Shown one piece after another: positions 53,155 through 61,568 of a stretch of 64,000 bases of DNA. Numbering within the stretch: position 1 is the first letter of the stretch; every line of letters begins with the position of its first letter. The translations under genes were made by a program, and so were the position numbers. The notes under the pieces are model-generated. The model was not told the DNA's origin. It ran no database searches and saw only the letters and a program-made list of their open reading frames with translations. Location of the stretch: positions 764,768 through 828,767 of the forward strand of contig NZ_LN831058.1 of the NCBI RefSeq assembly GCF_001375495.1, in the 5' to 3' direction. The stretch comes from Flaviflexus massiliensis (GTDB lineage: Bacteria; Actinomycetota; Actinomycetes; Actinomycetales; Actinomycetaceae).

Positions 53155-54578
53155 GGTCAAGTCCCGTGTAGTGGTGTAGCGGTCTAGCTTTCGGCTCGGT
53201 ATGAAGTTCGGGGTTTTGGGTTAGGCGGTTAGCTGGTGTTGGTCGCCATGATCACCTCCTGGGTGGTGCATGAGGTGTTTGGTGTGTTCGAGTGCGGACA
53301 GTGACATGTAGCGCTTTTGTTGGATCCAATCGTCGTGTTGCTCGGCAAGAACCGCACCGACAAGCCGGATGATGGATTCGCGGTTCGGGAAGATGCCCAC
53401 GACATCGGTGCGCCGGCGGATCTCCCTGTTTAACCGCTCGGTGGGGTTGTTCGACCACACCTTCGTCCAGACTGGTTTCGGCGCTGCGGTAAACGCCAAC
53501 ACCTCATCAAGCGACTCCTCCAGATAGGCCGCAACCTGCGGGAATTTCGGCTCCAACAAGTCGACGACCTCCCGGGCTTGTCCCCAAGTAGATGAGGCAT
53601 CGGGTTGCTGGAAGATGGTCTGGAACATCGCAGAGACCATCGGCCACTGTGTCTTCGGGACCTTTTCGTAGAGGTTTTTCGCGAAGTGGGTGCGGCACCG
53701 CTGCCACGACGCATCAGGCAGCACTTCAGAAATGGCGTGCTGGATGCCTTCGTGGGCGTCACTGGTTATAAGGAAGACACCACAAAGCCCGCGGGCTTTT
53801 AAGTCCTGGAAGAAGCCTTTCCACGATGCGTTGGATTCCGCAGTGGCGACATGTATGCCGAGCATTTCGCGGTACCCGTCAGCGTTAACACCGGTGGCCA
53901 AAAGTACGGAGCATTTGACCACCCGGCCGCCTTCGCGCACTTTGATCGTCAATGCGTCGCAGGACAGGTAGGCGTACCCGCCGGGATCGAGTGGGCGGTT
54001 TTTGAAGTCTGCGACCATCTCGTCGAGTTCTTCCGACATGCGCGATACTTGGGATTTCGACATGTTGGAAATCCCAAGTGTTGCCACCAGGTCATTCATC
54101 CTACGGGTGGAAACCCCTTTGAGGTAGCAGGTCGCGATCACAGTCGATAAGGCTCGTTCGGCCCGTGAACGTCGCTCTAACAGCCAGTCCGGGAAGAACG
54201 CGCCGTGGCGCAGCTTCGGTACCGCCACATCGATCGTGCCGACCCGGGTGTCGAGGTCTCGGTGACGGTACCCGTTACGGTGGTTGACCCGCTCAGCAGA
54301 AGCGACGCCGTATTCAGCCCCGCAGACGGTATCAGCCTGGGCGGAGAGGATCTGGTTGATAAACCCTTGCAGCATCTGACGCATCAGATCCGGGGAAGCC
54401 TGTGCCAGCAGATCGTCCAGATAGGTTGCAGGGTCGATAGAATGCGGAGCAGCGGTCATCGTTACGTGCCTTTCGGTGAGATGTGGTAGTTGAGTCGAAA
54501 GGTTACTGACGGTGGCCGCCCCAATATTTCCCAAGGCCCACCATCAGAAAGCGTTACACCACACTAAGGGACGCAACC
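53155..54578 (-). mobile_element. IS256-family insertion sequence
   Basis: A 1,424-bp element bounded by imperfect 28-bp inverted repeats; both ends begin GGT, then share GTCCC and GTGGTGTA. It is flanked by the 8-bp direct repeat GTTTAAAG (53147-53154 and 54579-54586), the expected IS256 target duplication. The intact repeat and full transposase suggest a recent insertion. Confidence 0.92.
53221..54459 (-). CDS. IS256-family transposase
   Basis: 412 residues from the ATG at 54459 (MTAAPHSIDPATYLDDLLAQ). The mutator-type DDE catalytic residues are present: Asp in YAYLSCDALTIKVREGG, Asp in FLITSDAHEGIQHAI, and Glu in NNPTERLNREIRRRTDVVG, with the C/H motif CRTHFAKNL between. Complete and probably functional. 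Confidence 0.95.
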   Translation of the reverse strand: MTAAPHSIDPATYLDDLLAQASPDLMRQMLQGFINQILSAQADTVCGAEYGVASAERVNHRNGYRHRDLDTRVGTIDVAVPKLRHGAFFPDWLLERRSRAERALSTVIATCYLKGVSTRRMNDLVATLGISNMSKSQVSRMSEELDEMVADFKNRPLDPGGYAYLSCDALTIKVREGGRVVKCSVLLATGVNADGYREMLGIHVATAESNASWKGFFQDLKARGLCGVFLITSDAHEGIQHAISEVLPDASWQRCRTHFAKNLYEKVPKTQWPMVSAMFQTIFQQPDASSTWGQAREVVDLLEPKFPQVAAYLEESLDEVLAFTAAPKPVWTKVWSNNPTERLNREIRRRTDVVGIFPNRESIIRLVGAVLAEQHDDWIQQKRYMSLSALEHTKHLMHHPGGDHGDQHQLTA

Positions 54579-55313: not shown

Positions 55314-55685
55314 CTACGCTACACGCCGTAGCGTCCGCTGGAATGCTTCCACAATCCAGTCTGTCACGTCGAGCTCATCCGCAATACCGTGGATGTTAGT
55401 GCCGTGGATCCGCTCAGCCAGGCGATACTCGGCTTCGCTCACGAGTAGTCCTGCAGCATGTTCATCCACCCACGCCTCACGAGCCGGCTCACACGGCCCA
55501 TCATGCCCATACCAGGCATGCACCGCCTCATGAGCCAGCGTGCACCGCTGCCATGTAGGGGAGAGACGTGCATCCACGATGATGAGCCGCTGAGCGTGCC
55601 AATACGCACCCGGCAACGGCCACGGCAGGAACACGACATGCACACCCGCATCCTCGAGAGCGGCGATGAGATCAGATTCAGTCAC
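55314..55685 (-). CDS. ImmA/IrrE-type metallopeptidase
   Basis: A 123-residue COG2856 protein. The zinc motif is LAHEAVHAWYG (HExxH) with a downstream acidic ligand region (EAWVDEHAAGLLVS). ImmA peptidases cleave or inactivate the cognate XRE repressor to trigger induction. Last gene of the leftward lysogeny operon, next to the attachment site. Confidence 0.85.
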   Translation of the reverse strand: MTESDLIAALEDAGVHVVFLPWPLPGAYWHAQRLIIVDARLSPTWQRCTLAHEAVHAWYGHDGPCEPAREAWVDEHAAGLLVSEAEYRLAERIHGTNIHGIADELDVTDWIVEAFQRTLRRVA

Positions 55686-56228: not shown

Positions 56229-56792
56229 CTAGTAATTGAACCCAGTGAGAGAGGAGTACCTTTCTGTAGCCTGCGCCCACTGGTGCATGATCGCGGTTCT
56301 CAATTGCACCTCATAAACCAACCCATCGAATTGGGGCGCGATATGAATAGCTCGATACCCGGAAACGCGAGGCTGCTCGATGTAGTCGATCACCTGCACA
56401 TCGGGTCCCCAAGTTGAGACGATCCAATCTCTCAATCGATACAGATCGCTGATGCCATGCTCTGACCCAAGAATCACGCGACATCCACCAATATCCCTCA
56501 TGCGCGAGAAGTCCAGACGAGCTTCCCTCGAGGACAGCTTCTCGATGATCGTTTCCTCACGCTTAAGGCGTTGAGCAACTTTCCCGGTCAAGCCAAGCGT
56601 GGAGAGGAAAGACCGCAGTCCCATGTTGATACGAGTGAGACCCGGAGAGAATGACCTCCGGTAGGCGCTTACGGTATCAAGGGCTTGGTTGTACGTTTCT
56701 TCATCGCAGTCACCCCGCTGGTACGCCCTAATACGAGAACCAGCCTTCTTGACGGAGCTCTTTGACCAACCCTTCGCTTTACGATCCCCCAT
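56229..56792 (-). CDS. RelA/SpoT-type small alarmone synthetase, truncated by an amber codon
   Basis: 187 residues from ATG 56792. The pppGpp synthetase domain is clear: RMRDIGGCRVILG, SGYRAIHIAPQFDG and EVQLRTAIMHQWAQATERYSS. No hydrolase or regulatory domains, so it is a small alarmone synthetase or a RelA-fold toxin (ToxSAS-like). The frame stops at TAG (56229-56231) but continues in register for 45 sense codons (SDGTTQIHQRFKDISDKLAE...) to a second TAG at 56091, and that continuation resembles the usual C-terminal helix of these proteins. It is therefore probably a nonsense-truncated gene, or one needing amber suppression. Confidence 0.82.
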   Translation of the reverse strand: MGDRKAKGWSKSSVKKAGSRIRAYQRGDCDEETYNQALDTVSAYRRSFSPGLTRINMGLRSFLSTLGLTGKVAQRLKREETIIEKLSSREARLDFSRMRDIGGCRVILGSEHGISDLYRLRDWIVSTWGPDVQVIDYIEQPRVSGYRAIHIAPQFDGLVYEVQLRTAIMHQWAQATERYSSLTGFNY

Positions 56793-56848
56793 CTCAACCC
56801 TTCCCACCGTCGGCGCTTGGCTGTGCATGCGGGGACGCCGCCGGCATG

Positions 56849-57838
56849 TCATTCATCGTCGTCCCATTCGAATTCGCGGCGCTTGACGGACTCAACCGCC
56901 GTTGGTTCTCCCTGGGAGTCGAGCCAGTCACGGGTCACGTCTGCGGCACGTGCAACATAGAGAACGGCTTCTGCTTTGAGTGGGGAGCCGCCTATCACGC
57001 CTTTCGCAACTGCGACCTTGCCACGTTCGTTGACGTACTCGACTAAGGGCAGCATATTGGCCGACTGGACGTCAGACAGCCAGCCGATCTGCTCCTCATC
57101 GAGAAAGACGTTGACACGCTTCTTTGCCGAGTTAGGGCGGAAATCGTAATCGATCTTCAGTCTCAACCAGGCCATTATCTCGCCGCTATCTGGCACATGA
57201 GGGGCCAGGATGTCGGTGAAGTTTTCTTCACCAATAACCTGCATCCGGGCACCGTCCGGAAGCAGTGCTTCTCTATCCGTGGGAGGGTTCCCATGGGCGT
57301 TCAGTTCGCTCGTCGCATTGATGTGGAAGTACGCGCGGGCGCGAACCTTAGACCCGTCGAGTCGGGCCCAAATACGGCCTGGGACTTCGAGACTCATTCC
57401 TATGTTCTCGATAACGGGTTGGAGCTCTGCTGATTTCCCGGAGGGCACGTAGCCGACGTGCCAGCCTTCACACCATACGGCCACGGCGTTGGCACCATAC
57501 GGGTTGGTCGGATCGGGTACGAGCTGCAGATTCACCGCTCGATCTGCACCCGACTGGGTTCGGAAGCCAAGCTCGTCGCCGAGGAGAGCTTTGAAGCTGT
57601 CCGGGCGAGCGAACTCGCCCTCTACTTCGATCTGATCACTGAGACGTCCCCAGATTTGTCGTCGTTGCGGCGTCGGCTGCGGAGGACGATGGTCACCATT
57701 AGTTTTGTTGTCCGTTGCTCGGCCACTAGTTCCCCTATTTGAAGGGGACAAGGATCCAATTTCCGGTTTTTGCGCCTTCTTCTTTCGGCGCCACCAGACG
57801 AATAGGGTGATTAACCCAATTAATATGATTGGCTCCAT
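56849..57838 (-). CDS. Membrane-anchored HIRAN-like domain protein
   Basis: 329 residues with an N-terminal membrane helix (IILIGLITLFVWW) and basic stop-transfer RRKKK, a linker, then a HIRAN-like region (residues about 70-140: VEGEF...LQLVPDPTNPYGANAVAVWCEGWHVGYVPSGKSAEL). HIRAN domains bind DNA 3' ends or stalled forks; in phage genes of this type the role is unknown. The C-terminal half is a further alpha/beta domain. Transcribed leftward with the repressor. Confidence 0.65.
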   Translation of the reverse strand: MEPIILIGLITLFVWWRRKKKAQKPEIGSLSPSNRGTSGRATDNKTNGDHRPPQPTPQRRQIWGRLSDQIEVEGEFARPDSFKALLGDELGFRTQSGADRAVNLQLVPDPTNPYGANAVAVWCEGWHVGYVPSGKSAELQPVIENIGMSLEVPGRIWARLDGSKVRARAYFHINATSELNAHGNPPTDREALLPDGARMQVIGEENFTDILAPHVPDSGEIMAWLRLKIDYDFRPNSAKKRVNVFLDEEQIGWLSDVQSANMLPLVEYVNERGKVAVAKGVIGGSPLKAEAVLYVARAADVTRDWLDSQGEPTAVESVKRREFEWDDDE

Positions 57839-57856: not shown

Positions 57857-58552
57857 TCACTCCCCTACGTCGTTGTGGGGGTCCGGCTGGGTGTGCGGAC
57901 TAGCTGCCGGCATGTAGTCGGACTGCAAGGCCTGGGCGAGCTTCGCCTGTGCAAGATCGTCATAGTCAGCAACCGCGTCTTGGTAGTCATGGATGTTGTC
58001 AAAGCCGGCCTCTGCCGCTTCCTTCGCCATTTCTTCGTTAGCAGCATCCTGCTGAGCCTCATAAAGCCGATCCTGGGCGCGGAGTCTAGTTTCACCGAGT
58101 GTGGAGGGGCCTAAATGGATTCTCGAATTGCGAATTTCGCGTGCTCGTTGGCGTGCTGCGGCATCGGCGAAGGACCGAACTTCGATCATCTCGTCCGGTT
58201 CTAGGCCGTCGAAGATCTCCGGGTTAAGGGTAAGTGCGATCTTGCTCGCCGAGAAGGACGAGACGGGTCGCTGGGAGTCTTTGACTACGGATGCCGCAAA
58301 ACCCCGCGAATGCATTGGATACGGCTCGGGCTGTCCGCCCTGGAGCACTGCGTCGCTTGACCCAGGGGACCATTCGAGAGCGTTGTCGAGCTTCATCAAA
58401 GAGTCTGAGCTGACATTGGGAAGCCGCCCGAGCTCGATGCGGGAGACGGTTGTCGTTGAGGGTCCGCCGCGTTGTGAGACCTCGATTTGCGACAGGCCAA
58501 GTTCAATTCGGCGGGCCTTTACTGCCTTGGCTAAAGCTTCATAATCCGTCAT
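57857..58552 (-). CDS. XRE-family prophage repressor
   Basis: 231 residues. The N-terminal helix-turn-helix is RIELGLSQIEVSQRGGPSTTTVSRIELG, followed by a long helical C-terminal part (RSFADAAARQRAREIRNSRI...). It is the first gene of the leftward operon and faces the operator-rich promoter region, so it is the likely lysogeny repressor and ImmA target. Confidence 0.8.
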   Translation of the reverse strand: MTDYEALAKAVKARRIELGLSQIEVSQRGGPSTTTVSRIELGRLPNVSSDSLMKLDNALEWSPGSSDAVLQGGQPEPYPMHSRGFAASVVKDSQRPVSSFSASKIALTLNPEIFDGLEPDEMIEVRSFADAAARQRAREIRNSRIHLGPSTLGETRLRAQDRLYEAQQDAANEEMAKEAAEAGFDNIHDYQDAVADYDDLAQAKLAQALQSDYMPAASPHTQPDPHNDVGE

Positions 58553-58573
58553 GCCTAGATAGTCTCAAAAACC

Positions 58574-58718
58574 TTTGGCAAACACCTAACGTATTTGGAA
58601 AACACCGCGCCTAGTTATGCCTGAAATTACAAGGATGTAACTTCACTTTATTGGCAAACTGGTGCCGTTTGCCTAAAAGTTGCTTGCAATGGATAGGTGT
58701 TTGCCGTACATTCTAGGC
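58574..58718. promoter_or_regulatory. Prophage operator/promoter region
   Basis: GGCAAAC/GTTTGCC half-sites occur at 58577, 58653, 58667 and 58699, plus the variant TTTGGAAAACACC at 58594. GGCAAACACCTA (58577-58588) and TAGGTGTTTGCC (58694-58705) are exact reverse complements, and GGCAAAC-N7-GTTTGCC (58653-58673) is a perfect dyad. TTGCAA (58684-58689), 17 bp and TACATT (58707-58712) form a promoter overlapping the last operator; ATG follows six bases later, predicting a leaderless early transcript. Confidence 0.75.
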
Positions 58719-59024
58719 ATGGCAACAAAAGCACTAGGCGTGACTGAAAAGCGGGCTAGGCTCCAGCCCCCAGTCATCACTCTTAAGGGGCTCCGGAACA
58801 TCCTCGGGCTCTCTCTCGCTGAGGCATGTGCGCTCATCGAGGAGAAGTCTCCAGAAATCACGATCTCTCGAGGATCCCTTTGCGCCATCGAAAACGGCTC
58901 TAGAGGTGCATCCACAGCGATGCTGACCGCTCTCGAAGTCGCTTACGGCCTGGATCAAGGAGACCTCGTCACCAATTACGAGCCGCGTAGCCGGCGTAAC
59001 CCAAATGAAAAGACCGCCGCGTAG
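58719..59024 (+). CDS. Cro-like XRE helix-turn-helix protein
   Basis: 101 residues from ATG 58719, chosen because it coincides with the predicted transcription start. LKGLRNILGLSLAEACALIE and RGSLCAIENGSRGASTAMLTALEVAYGLD form the HTH domain. First gene of the rightward arm; probably acts as Cro or a transcriptional activator. Confidence 0.72.
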   Translation: MATKALGVTEKRARLQPPVITLKGLRNILGLSLAEACALIEEKSPEITISRGSLCAIENGSRGASTAMLTALEVAYGLDQGDLVTNYEPRSRRNPNEKTAA

Positions 59025-59059
59025 CAGCGCGACGGTCCTAGCGAAAGGAATCAACTTTC

Positions 59060-59827
59060 ATGTCTCACCTTACCGCAGTCCCCTTCCACGGGACGAACAT
59101 CCACGCGATCAAGAACGATGACGGCATCCACGTCGCCGTCCGCCCCATCTGCGAATCGCTTGGCATCCAGGCGGATGCGCAAGTAAAGCGACTGAAGCGT
59201 GAACCCTGGGCAGTCACGTCCATCAAGGATGGAACTGGAAACGACGGGAAGCGTTACCAGATGACCTTCGTGGATCGTCGGACGTTCACGATGTGGCTCG
59301 CCACCATCCAAACCAGCCGCATCAAAAACGAAGCAGCACGTGAACTCCTCGAGGCCTACCAATGCGAAGCCGCTGACGCCCTCGACAAATACTTCCACGA
59401 GGGTGGAGTCATCAACCCGCGCGCGTCCGAGCACCAGGTGAACGCGATCATCCGGCAAGCCCAAATGAAGATGGAACTCTGCCAAGCAGCCAAGGGCCTC
59501 ATCCACGCCGACCACCTCGAAGCTAGGGCCCGCATCGTTCTCGCTGAAGGGCTCGGTGAGAACCCCGTCATCGACCAGGCCAAGCGTCCCCTCTACGTCC
59601 AGGCATACCTCGAGCAGAAGAACCTCTCCACCAGCCAGCTCCGCAAGGTGGCAGGCACATTCGGAAAACGATTGAAGGCCGCCTACACGTTGCGCCACGG
59701 CAAGGCTCCTGACCAGTACCCGCTCCAGATCAAGAACGGGCAGATCAAGAACGTCAACGCCTACACCGAGGCTGACCGTCCGCTCATGGACGAGATCTGG
59801 ACCGACTACTACGCACAGGTGATCTGA
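59060..59827 (+). CDS. Phage antirepressor protein
   Basis: 255 residues. The N-terminal P22 AR-type domain has TNIHAIKNDDGIHVAVRPICESLGIQADAQVKRLK and MTFVDRRTFTMWLATI, typical of phage antirepressors (BRO/ANT-like). The C-terminal half is a helical domain (QLRKVAGTFGKRLKAAYTLRHGKAP). It would counteract the XRE repressor. GCGAAAGGAATCAAC lies upstream. Confidence 0.85.
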   Translation: MSHLTAVPFHGTNIHAIKNDDGIHVAVRPICESLGIQADAQVKRLKREPWAVTSIKDGTGNDGKRYQMTFVDRRTFTMWLATIQTSRIKNEAARELLEAYQCEAADALDKYFHEGGVINPRASEHQVNAIIRQAQMKMELCQAAKGLIHADHLEARARIVLAEGLGENPVIDQAKRPLYVQAYLEQKNLSTSQLRKVAGTFGKRLKAAYTLRHGKAPDQYPLQIKNGQIKNVNAYTEADRPLMDEIWTDYYAQVI

Positions 59828-59829
59828 CC

Positions 59830-60288
59830 ATGACTCGTATGAATGCGCTGTTTGTGAAGCCCACGCTTTGGAACTACCTCTGCGAAGCGGCTCGCGAGTG
59901 GTGGCATACGTGGCACGCGAAGAACGCCCCCATGAAGAGGAATGCTCGTCACATCTACGTCATGTCTCCGCTGACAGCTCTACAACTATGGGATCCGTCA
60001 ACTGGTCAACTCGGACCAGGATCTTTTGGGGAACGCCAAGTCTCCACTGCCCAATCCGATCCGGGAACGCGACCTTCGCCTGAAACGACACGGACTCCCC
60101 AGGTTCAAGACTCGTCTGGTTCCCAAGGAGTAGCAGAGTCGTCCGAGCGGGCGCAGGAAGCTTCTCAATCTCTTCAAGGGCAATCCCACTTATGGGTTTC
60201 CTGCCCACGTTGCGCAGCACAAATATTCCTCTATCTAGCCCGGCCTTCCGGTAGTCAGCCTTCAACGCATATGCCGGAGGGCGACTAG
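59830..60288 (+). CDS. Possible small phage protein disrupted by reverse-oriented cassette
   Basis: The first 43 codons (MTRMNALFVKPTLWNYLCEA...) follow the antirepressor by two bases and look like a phage protein. After about 59960 the frame is antisense to a better-supported minus-strand gene and is Ser/Gln/Pro-rich, as shadows are. The real gene was probably cut when the reverse cassette inserted. Confidence 0.35.
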   Translation: MTRMNALFVKPTLWNYLCEAAREWWHTWHAKNAPMKRNARHIYVMSPLTALQLWDPSTGQLGPGSFGERQVSTAQSDPGTRPSPETTRTPQVQDSSGSQGVAESSERAQEASQSLQGQSHLWVSCPRCAAQIFLYLARPSGSQPSTHMPEGD

Positions 60289-60382
60289 TGCTCCAGTTCA
60301 ACCAGTTCCAAACGCCGTTGGCAGTCGTGCCGACAACAGCAACACCAAGCGCCCACCACGCCGGGTCGTTCATCCATTCCAT
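59960..60382 (-). CDS. Single-pass membrane protein, moron-like
   Basis: 140 residues from ATG 60382 (a start three codons later is possible). An N-terminal helix (WALGVAVVGTTANGVWNWL) is followed by a beta-rich domain (IFVLRNVGRKPISGIALEEI...SLEPGESVSFQAKV) resembling an immunoglobulin-like fold. No family name. It runs opposite to the flanking early genes, with a TATATA box upstream, so it is probably expressed independently in the lysogen. Confidence 0.65.
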   Translation of the reverse strand: MEWMNDPAWWALGVAVVGTTANGVWNWLNWSTSRPPAYALKADYRKAGLDRGIFVLRNVGRKPISGIALEEIEKLPAPARTTLLLLGNQTSLEPGESVSFQAKVAFPDRIGQWRLGVPQKILVRVDQLTDPIVVELSAET

Positions 60383-60475
60383 ACCAGTGACTCTATATAG
60401 AGAGGTCCAGCCATGACCCGCATGAATACCGAACACATCAGCATTAGTGTTCCAGAAGGCTTGACCGAGCTTGCC

Positions 60476-60817
60476 CTAAAGGTCAGCAATGTTGACGAAC
60501 TTCGAGATCCCTCCCTCAAAGTCAAACATGATCGCGCCATCCTGGACCTCGAAGACCTCCGTTTTGGTCCCAGTTTCAGTGTTGGTGATGTACGCCTGCC
60601 CGTCATCCACGAGAACGACGGTGATGATCTTCGAATTGGTCAGGATCTTAAGCTCAAGCTTGGCGATAGCTTCAATTGTCGTGCGAACCATTTGAGTAAG
60701 TTCCCGAACGGTCGAACCAACATCGTTAAGGTCTCCGTCCTGCAGATTTTTAAGGCGCTCGTTGAATTCGTTTCTCGCCTTGTCGGTAGCGGGCAAAAGC
60801 TCGTAAGGGACATCCAT
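60476..60817 (-). CDS. Unknown protein of the reverse-oriented cassette
   Basis: 113 residues from ATG 60817 with AGGAAGAATC upstream. The N-terminal half is helical (VGSTVRELTQMVRTTIEAIAKLELKI) and the C-terminal half beta-stranded (VLVDDGQAYITNTETGTKTEVF), reminiscent of small regulatory or immunity proteins, but no family is recognised. It lies upstream of, and may be co-transcribed with, the membrane protein at 59960-60382. Confidence 0.65.
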   Translation of the reverse strand: MDVPYELLPATDKARNEFNERLKNLQDGDLNDVGSTVRELTQMVRTTIEAIAKLELKILTNSKIITVVLVDDGQAYITNTETGTKTEVFEVQDGAIMFDFEGGISKFVNIADL

Positions 60818-60906
60818 GATTCTTCCTCTCCCGTAGGTGGTTCCAGCAATCCCCACCCTACGGGAGAGGGACCCACCACATCCTCGGAATTAGAGGATGA
60901 AGCCTG

Positions 60907-61107
60907 ATGTCCAGTGTGAAGGAGCAGCAGCTCCAAATGATCACCAGGCAACGCGCAGCCGAACTCGCTGACGTGTCCCTCTCGACGGTGGACAGGTGGA
61001 TCCTGCACGGCGATCTCCAGGCCTACAGGCTCGGACCTAAAGCCGTCCGCATCCGCCTCACCGACCTCCAAGAGTTCATGACCTCCCGCACCTGGGACGA
61101 CCTCTAA
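60907..61107 (+). CDS. Excisionase-like helix-turn-helix protein
   Basis: 66 residues with the pattern MITRQRAAELADVSLSTVDR...WILHGDLQAYRLGPKAVRIRL, the winged-helix excisionase/AlpA family. In phages of this type it regulates integration/excision or early transcription. Confidence 0.75.
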   Translation: MSSVKEQQLQMITRQRAAELADVSLSTVDRWILHGDLQAYRLGPKAVRIRLTDLQEFMTSRTWDDL

Positions 61108-61137
61108 CCACTCTTTTTCCAACGAAGGAAACCTGTC

Positions 61138-61248
61138 ATGAAAACCCTCATCCCCACATGGGCGTTCAGCGTCCTGAAATGGGTGCTCCTGCTCGAAGCC
61201 TCCGTCGCGACTGCGTTGCTTATCGACTGGTGGTGGACAGCAGCATGA
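61138..61248 (+). CDS. Tiny membrane protein
   Basis: A 36-codon frame (MKTLIPTWAFSVLKWVLLLE...) with GAAGGAAACCTG upstream, one hydrophobic helix and an ATGA overlap with the next gene. Small membrane proteins of this kind are common in phage early regions. Confidence 0.6.
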   Translation: MKTLIPTWAFSVLKWVLLLEASVATALLIDWWWTAA

Positions 61249-61568
61249 GCCACTACATCGGCGCGGAACTCGTCGAAATCAAACACCGACCACCCCGCAT
61301 CGTCACCATCTTCTCCCCGAACGGGCCAGCCTCACAAGGCCCCGACTATCAGGTCGGGCTCTCGCTCGGGGAAGCCGAAGAACTCGTGAACGCCTGGTGG
61401 AACCCGACAGGGCCCAGGATCTTTGAAAACTTCACGCTGGCCAAAGACGACCAGGAAATCCACGTCTATTTCCCGCACGTCACCCTCCTTCTCGGACTCG
61501 ACCGCCTCGACACCATCCGACTCATCAGCGACCTCGAAGACATCCTCAACGCAAAGCAGACAGCATGA
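61245..61568 (+). CDS. Phage protein of unknown function
   Basis: 107 residues from ATG 61245. Alpha/beta pattern (YIGAELVEIKHRPPRIVTIF...HVYFPHVTLLLGLDRLDTIRL). No family recognised. Overlaps both neighbours by four bases. Confidence 0.65.
   Translation: MSHYIGAELVEIKHRPPRIVTIFSPNGPASQGPDYQVGLSLGEAEELVNAWWNPTGPRIFENFTLAKDDQEIHVYFPHVTLLLGLDRLDTIRLISDLEDILNAKQTA

Follow-up and report, generated by a model that had tools for sequence, protein, structure and literature searches.

The window, a 64,000-nucleotide stretch from Flaviflexus massiliensis, includes the early region of a prophage block carried by a 2.63 Mb genome. Domain and PHROG matches identify an HTH_3 repressor-like gene on the minus strand (57857..58552) and a P22_AR_N antirepressor on the plus strand (59060..59827), with a rightward Cro-like HTH gene at 58680..59024 (phrog_6463, 7e-25). 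Two minus-strand genes lie beyond the antirepressor, at 59960..60382 (gene 1, encoding P0001) and 60476..60817 (gene 2, encoding P0002, 113 aa), where the initial annotation had placed them. Gene 1 is defined by its ORF, by the best codon score of six frames and by a homologue in Boudabousia (Actinomycetaceae), whose matching N-terminus sets the start of P0001 at the ATG at 60382. Gene 2 is defined by its ORF and codon score and has a strong ribosome-binding site within an inverted repeat. This repeat, missed in the initial annotation and described by our model R1, has perfect 13-bp arms around a 19-nt loop (60825..60869) and ends 7 bases before the P0002 start.

On the plus strand, three rightward bridging ORFs span 100% of both leftward genes without a gap, from 59830 to 60907. 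ORF A (59830..60288) is antisense to most of gene 1; ORF B (60288..60416, 42 aa) has a GTG start with GGAGG just upstream; and ORF C (60413..60907) is antisense to gene 2 and runs through the inverted repeat. The next gene in the rightward chain is an excisionase-like HTH_17 gene (60907..61107, plus strand; Pfam HTH_17, 5.6e-08; phrog_66). The antirepressor and the start of ORF A at 59830 are 2 nt apart, and the subsequent junctions are stop/start overlaps: TAGTG between A and B (60286-60290), ATGA between B and C (60413-60416) and TGATG between C and the excisionase-like gene (60905-60909). The leftward genes had been described as breaking the rightward region, which they do not, since the rightward ORFs cover both completely and each runs into the next through a shared stop/start junction. 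ORFs A and C do both open with MTRMN (59830 and 60413), which had been taken as a sign of a gene split or duplicated by insertion. Neither a split nor a duplication is supported, and we rejected a split gene: the two MTRMN starts open different coupled ORFs that diverge after residue 5, each forming one link of the chain. Direct repeats flanking the block are only short and imperfect (up to 25 nt), so there is no clear insertion scar; one copy of a 19-nt, 79% pair begins at 59960.

A consensus scan, which misses many actinobacterial promoters, found no leftward promoter within the block and no promoter-like site near 60825-60869. Between the start of gene 1 and ORF C lies a perfect palindrome, CTCTATATAGAG (60391-60402), which adjoins the ribosome-binding site of ORF C and might supply a leaderless start with a leftward -10-like element. 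Several further minus-strand ORFs were seen on the repressor side. Near the left side of the prophage region, 53221-54534 encodes a 437-aa transposase-like protein, of IS256 type by eye. An ORF with a HEAVH motif at 55314-55685 is, by eye, probably an ImmA/IrrE-type metalloprotease and has a very similar counterpart in a related prophage (L010 1-372, minus strand). Beside the repressor, a RelA/SpoT-like ORF (by eye) adjoins a HIRAN-domain protein (56229-56852 and 56849-57838; Pfam HIRAN 1.5e-08).

The closest prophage (G001), whose antirepressor is 87% identical, lacks gene 1, and its DNA between the antirepressor and the HTH_17 gene differs from that of the window apart from 119 bp that are 99% identical to a piece of the P0002 gene (60507..60625, by DNA comparison). 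In that remnant the leftward protein is no longer made, and the rightward ORF is still open and coupled. The G001 slot carries another leftward gene (162 aa), behind an inverted repeat of the same kind whose arm and loop lengths equal those in the window and whose letters differ. The 162-aa protein shows no similarity to P0002. The block is thus an accessory cassette whose presence varies, some relatives having it and others, such as G001, lacking it or carrying a replacement, a distribution that characterises morons and bears out the initial annotation on this point. Of seven reference phages with this antirepressor, taken from 63 matching phage records, none carries an annotated leftward gene at that position. 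Past the antirepressor of Dulem virus 32 (PP511597), an unannotated 155-aa leftward ORF (L023 5401-5868, minus strand) lies opposite a rightward CDS that is annotated; this may be the same layout with the other strand called.

Over both leftward genes, the leftward frame had the best codon score of the six frames, with values of 0.37-0.40 for gene 2 and 0.20-0.22 for the frame opposite it. P0001 and its Boudabousia homologue are 34-38% identical. Gene 1 had been labelled as a membrane protein; its minus-strand ORF stands, and the membrane call is weak, with a maximum 19-residue hydropathy of 0.92 (1.01 in the homologue, and not at the N-terminus), as compared with 1.5-2.4 in nine other proteins of similar layout. 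An AlphaFold2 model of P0001 contains eight strands and a short N-terminal helix that is weak as a membrane helix (pLDDT 71 overall, below 50 for residues 1-33 and about 70-90 for the greater part of the beta domain); P0001 is thus modelled as a beta-sandwich domain behind a short N-terminal helix. Foldseek returned no match to this model at E 0.001 or better. The best fold match (VIA Z 6.5, rmsd 3.5, 87 aligned) was to a pilus chaperone complex, level with matches to FlaG, adaptin ears and a COPI appendage, and because they tie, the matches indicate only a common beta-sandwich arrangement. P0002 modelled alone reached a pLDDT of 64. Neither protein had a Pfam or PHROGs family above cut-off or a PADLOC match.

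Several leftward proteins at other sites share a layout with an N-terminal hydrophobic helix and a C-terminal beta domain, the fold being modelled for P0001 only. These helix-plus-beta proteins align with one another in the leftward frame, and one homologue (L022) sits outside such an operon. The charge pattern of most of them suggests a domain on the cytoplasmic side. The group has no known family above cut-off and no solved relative by sequence, and tblastn on phage records gave no match for P0001, P0002, the 162-aa protein or two helix-plus-beta proteins. A role in phage exclusion, based on position and variability, is a guess. Helix-plus-beta-like leftward proteins were also noted in the early regions of two other prophages (L013 2128-2697 and L014 2447-2908, both minus strand), whose genes lack the inverted repeat, yet are fully covered by rightward ORFs.

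A strict pattern for the inverted repeat matched 2 of 149 genomes, both at this slot, and a looser pattern found further sites. The covariance model R1 was built from eight sites; four of its pairs are changed on both sides, and its covariation score exceeds that of all 500 shuffles. R1 matched 21 of 213 genomes of the family Actinomycetaceae, in five genera. In a sample of 396 genomes taken from the order it matched five, of which three belong to two other families. The element also occurs on three IMG/VR contigs besides two already known. We analysed 35 sites of the family in detail; these are partly related to one another, omit one covariance-model row (G166, E 0.0087) and include two (L044 211 and L044 1613) taken from a script and by eye beside a covariance-model match. 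Close behind the right arm, 31 of the 35 have the start of a leftward ORF of 40 aa or more, which places the repeat directly before the start codons of several unrelated genes; the other four have no leftward ORF of that length. On the far side of the repeat, many sites have an HTH protein, often excisionase-like by eye.

The form of the repeat carries a reading-frame signature. At 34 of the 35 sites the loop length leaves a remainder of 1 on division by three, and the length of the repeat unit behaves as if a multiple of three were required. Among 19 distinct arm pairs, departures from Watson-Crick pairing were G-U on the rightward strand in 16 cases and on the leftward strand in 5; one degenerate site supplies four of those five, and without it the counts are 15 versus 1. 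This bias points to a hairpin used in the rightward RNA, though part of it may stem from the constraint that the leftward ribosome-binding site places on one arm. The repeat does not have the form of an intrinsic terminator, being absent from the terminator-like sites and having no T run after its arms on either strand, and Rfam gave nothing above gathering over 58500-61500. At three sites in G016 (L052 288, 654 and 2705) and one in L094, the repeat lies at or behind the end of a real-looking rightward ORF with no credible leftward gene, and in L101 the leftward ORF is reduced to 18 aa. Given these sites, the repeat is more than a leader of leftward genes and belongs to the end of the cassette rather than to the leftward gene itself.

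Rightward frame 3 is open through the repeat at all 35 sites, typically reading SSSVG...PTEE, as compared with 9 and 11 sites for frames 1 and 2. At 28 sites its stop codon overlaps or directly adjoins the start of another ORF, 50 aa or longer; the same coupling was found at 11 of 35 sites for each of the other two frames and for 408 of all 1481 long open frames. Many bridging ORFs themselves start at a GTGATG or ATGA junction with the preceding ORF. The window alone proves little here, because antisense frames in GC-rich DNA are often open and the chance of an open frame opposite the 113-aa gene is 0.43. For ORF A, that chance, given the leftward protein and codon usage, is 0.047, and ORF B is uninformative by itself, the recoded frame being open in all trials.

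We therefore rely on a recoding test across sites, with 2000 synonymous recodings per leftward protein drawn from the codon usage of the same locus. It took 28 of the 31 leftward genes, leaving out two near-copies (L092, L096) and one spurious ORF (L052-654). In 26 of the 28, the bridging frame has no stop along the full length of the leftward gene, where 6.65 were expected (P 1.5e-19). When the genes were collapsed to families by hand, using for open ones the highest chance in each group, 13 of 15 were open and 4.5 were expected (P 1.3e-7). The test behaved as it should on a control set of 130 other long ORFs from these loci, in which the codon-aligned frame was open in 13 cases (12.3 expected) and the other two frames in 9 (5.4 expected) and 1 (1.1 expected). 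A 5-nt spacer between repeat and start separates the frame dictated by the repeat from the codon-aligned frame, and in five of six such cases it was the former that was open. In the two exceptions among the 28 (L090 and L098), the single bridging frame is not open across the gene, although another coupled ORF adjoins there. Seven sites from other families, in three genomes not used to define the pattern, gave the same picture: frame 3 was open through the repeat in all seven (two L116 sites having been re-registered by one base), five were coupled, and the frame was open across the leftward gene in six of six, with 1.96 expected from a recoding rougher than the main test, codon usage being counted over overlapping ORFs.

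The two strands differ in what has been preserved. The cleanest homologous pair, L100/L102, shares 63 of 73 leftward residues, and its changes fall 5, 5 and 23 on the three leftward codon positions. Leftward dN is 0.074 and dS 0.543 (dN/dS about 0.14), whereas rightward dN is 0.200 and dS 0.078, so that dN exceeds dS. Changes are most frequent at leftward third codon positions in the clear pairs, for which we relied on L100/L102, L091/L093, L085/L088, L087/L088/L089 and L044/L099; many other listed pairs are chance alignments near 30% identity and were set aside. By codon usage, the best frame is the leftward one at 20 of 31 sites and the bridging one at 11, never another. Substitution pattern and codon usage together indicate that, among comparable homologues, conservation acts on the protein read leftward, the frame on the other strand being only kept open. 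Conservation of the rightward frames at the protein level, which the initial annotation had named as evidence against its reading, was therefore found in part: the frames are maintained, and their amino acids, judged by L100/L102, are not.

Several explanations can be weighed against these data. That the open frames arose by chance, being common in GC-rich phage DNA, would suffice for the window's 113-aa gene taken alone; with 26 of 28 frames open across the sites, a control close to its expectation and the same outcome in other families, it is scarcely credible. It is also very improbable that the real genes run rightward and that the leftward ORFs are antisense artefacts. The rightward ORFs do have start codons, ribosome-binding sites and coupled junctions, codon score prefers them in 11 of 31 cases, and a few sites have a real-looking rightward ORF and no leftward gene; against this, the helix-plus-beta proteins align in the leftward frame and have a member (L022) outside such an operon, substitutions in clear pairs concentrate at leftward third positions, and the leftward frame has the top codon score in 20 of 31.

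The two remaining alternatives concern the repeat. It could be a start-associated regulatory leader, similar to SAS/ESAS, that hides or presents the leftward ribosome-binding site, the open rightward frame being a by-product. A GGAGG-like arm does stand 4-7 nt before the start codon at most of the 35 sites, the RNA fold buries it, and the repeat is common to many different downstream genes. Such a leader would leave unexplained the three-nucleotide periodicity, the rightward frames open at 35 of 35 sites and the coupled stops; broken pairs are also kept as G-U more often on the rightward strand (16 versus 5). We regard this explanation as distinctly unlikely. Still unlikely, though not to be dismissed lightly, is a palindrome that acts as a mobile or recombination-prone boundary at which cassettes are swapped, its in-frame length reflecting insertion into tolerant rightward genes. 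This would suit the closest prophage, with its repeat of the same kind and different cargo, the tandem arrays in G016, G162 and G454, and the repeats at the ends of rightward genes; it fits poorly with arms that covary site by site instead of matching one sequence and with the window, where no insertion footprint was found, and it does not account for the open frame across the cargo gene.

We consider it fairly probable that the leftward genes are moron-type accessory genes nested antisense in a translated rightward early operon, with the bridging frame kept open. Weighing against it, codon usage prefers the rightward frame in 11 of 31 cassettes, sites in G016 and L094 have the repeat but no credible leftward gene, two of the 28 genes lack the open single frame, the sites are partly related, GC-rich DNA often has open antisense frames, and the scan found no leftward promoter in the block. 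The layout, the conservation of the frame, the covariation of the arms and the exchange of cargo can all be read directly from the DNA, and what follows concerns their probable function. The bridging ORFs would be translated, and their coupling would carry ribosomes from the antirepressor, across the antisense of both genes, to the excisionase-like gene. As the frame is open and its peptide is not conserved, the likely job of the bridge is being translated, not making a protein. Rho is reported to repress pervasive, mostly antisense transcription in bacteria (PMC5540618), and a translated bridge could spare early transcription from Rho cut-off over an otherwise untranslated antisense stretch while passing ribosomes on to the excisionase start. 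Polarity is probably the reason that the bridge stays open. The inverted repeat marks the 5' end of the cassette. Its leftward arm contains the leftward gene's ribosome-binding site, the rightward frame fixes the length and register of the repeat, and its pairing appears better kept in the rightward RNA. The hairpin may regulate the rightward message or be a place where that message is processed, or it may be a sequence where cassettes exchange. The leftward genes themselves would presumably be expressed in the lysogen.

Each element of this arrangement has a known counterpart. Phage morons and superinfection-exclusion genes are variable accessory genes that run against the main direction of transcription near the immunity region; unlike morons placed in a gap, the block is nested in an operon that is open on the other strand. 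Rickettsia palindromic elements are palindromes lying in frame within ORFs, and the repeat differs from these in that no dispersed genome-wide copies were seen, the window's genome having one. The closest described systems are SAS and ESAS of cluster K mycobacteriophages, sequences at ribosome-binding sites, some with inverted repeats; ESAS comprise a putative SigA promoter and imperfect 15-17 bp repeats (PMC3203893, PMC11373665). Microbacterium cluster EF likewise has a conserved sequence at ribosome-binding sites (PMC7302621). The repeat resembles SAS/ESAS as a conserved sequence at the ribosome-binding site of many phage genes and, for cluster K, as an inverted repeat. It is unlike ESAS in overlapping the ribosome-binding site, in being mostly perfect and covarying, and in lying in frame inside an opposing ORF. 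The A4 arm consensus, CCTACCGGGGAGG, compared by eye, differs from the SAS consensus (GGGATAGGAGCCC or GGGAAAGGACCCC).

Antiparallel overlapping genes are known in bacteria as isolated pairs, with a role proposed for the product of each strand (PMC7457138; PMC9927249, PMC5810103). The block shares with them two long ORFs on opposing strands over one DNA stretch; constraint on both products was not found, the one informative close pair being L100/L102. Unlike those single cases, a whole family of cassettes here keeps an open, unconserved frame within a coupled operon. The ATGA and TGATG junctions resemble translational coupling by overlapping stops and starts (reviewed in PMC12548453), with the difference that the upstream coupled ORF lies opposite a further gene. 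The open-licence literature searched gave no account of bridging frames or of this arrangement.

We tentatively propose, with rather less assurance than the nested reading itself, a new kind of cassette: an antisense accessory gene with a translated bridge that makes no functional protein, an in-frame palindromic cap and coupled ends, which could be stacked in tandem without polarity. The layout, with a matching hairpin sequence, recurs in prophages of other actinobacteria, which suggests that phages repeatedly carry accessory genes in this manner. The model offers a testable reason for some long antisense ORFs in dense phage operons, namely translation itself and not the protein. It also carries a warning for annotation, as either strand may be called in such regions (Dulem virus 32). 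R1 provides a sequence handle for accessory-gene cassettes in actinobacterial prophages, and those reachable through it include the uncharacterised helix-plus-beta group. In a genome of another family (G454), L117 4738-5740 contains three tandem cassettes with near-identical repeats, one of which encodes a relative, by eye, of a 122-aa protein from G162.
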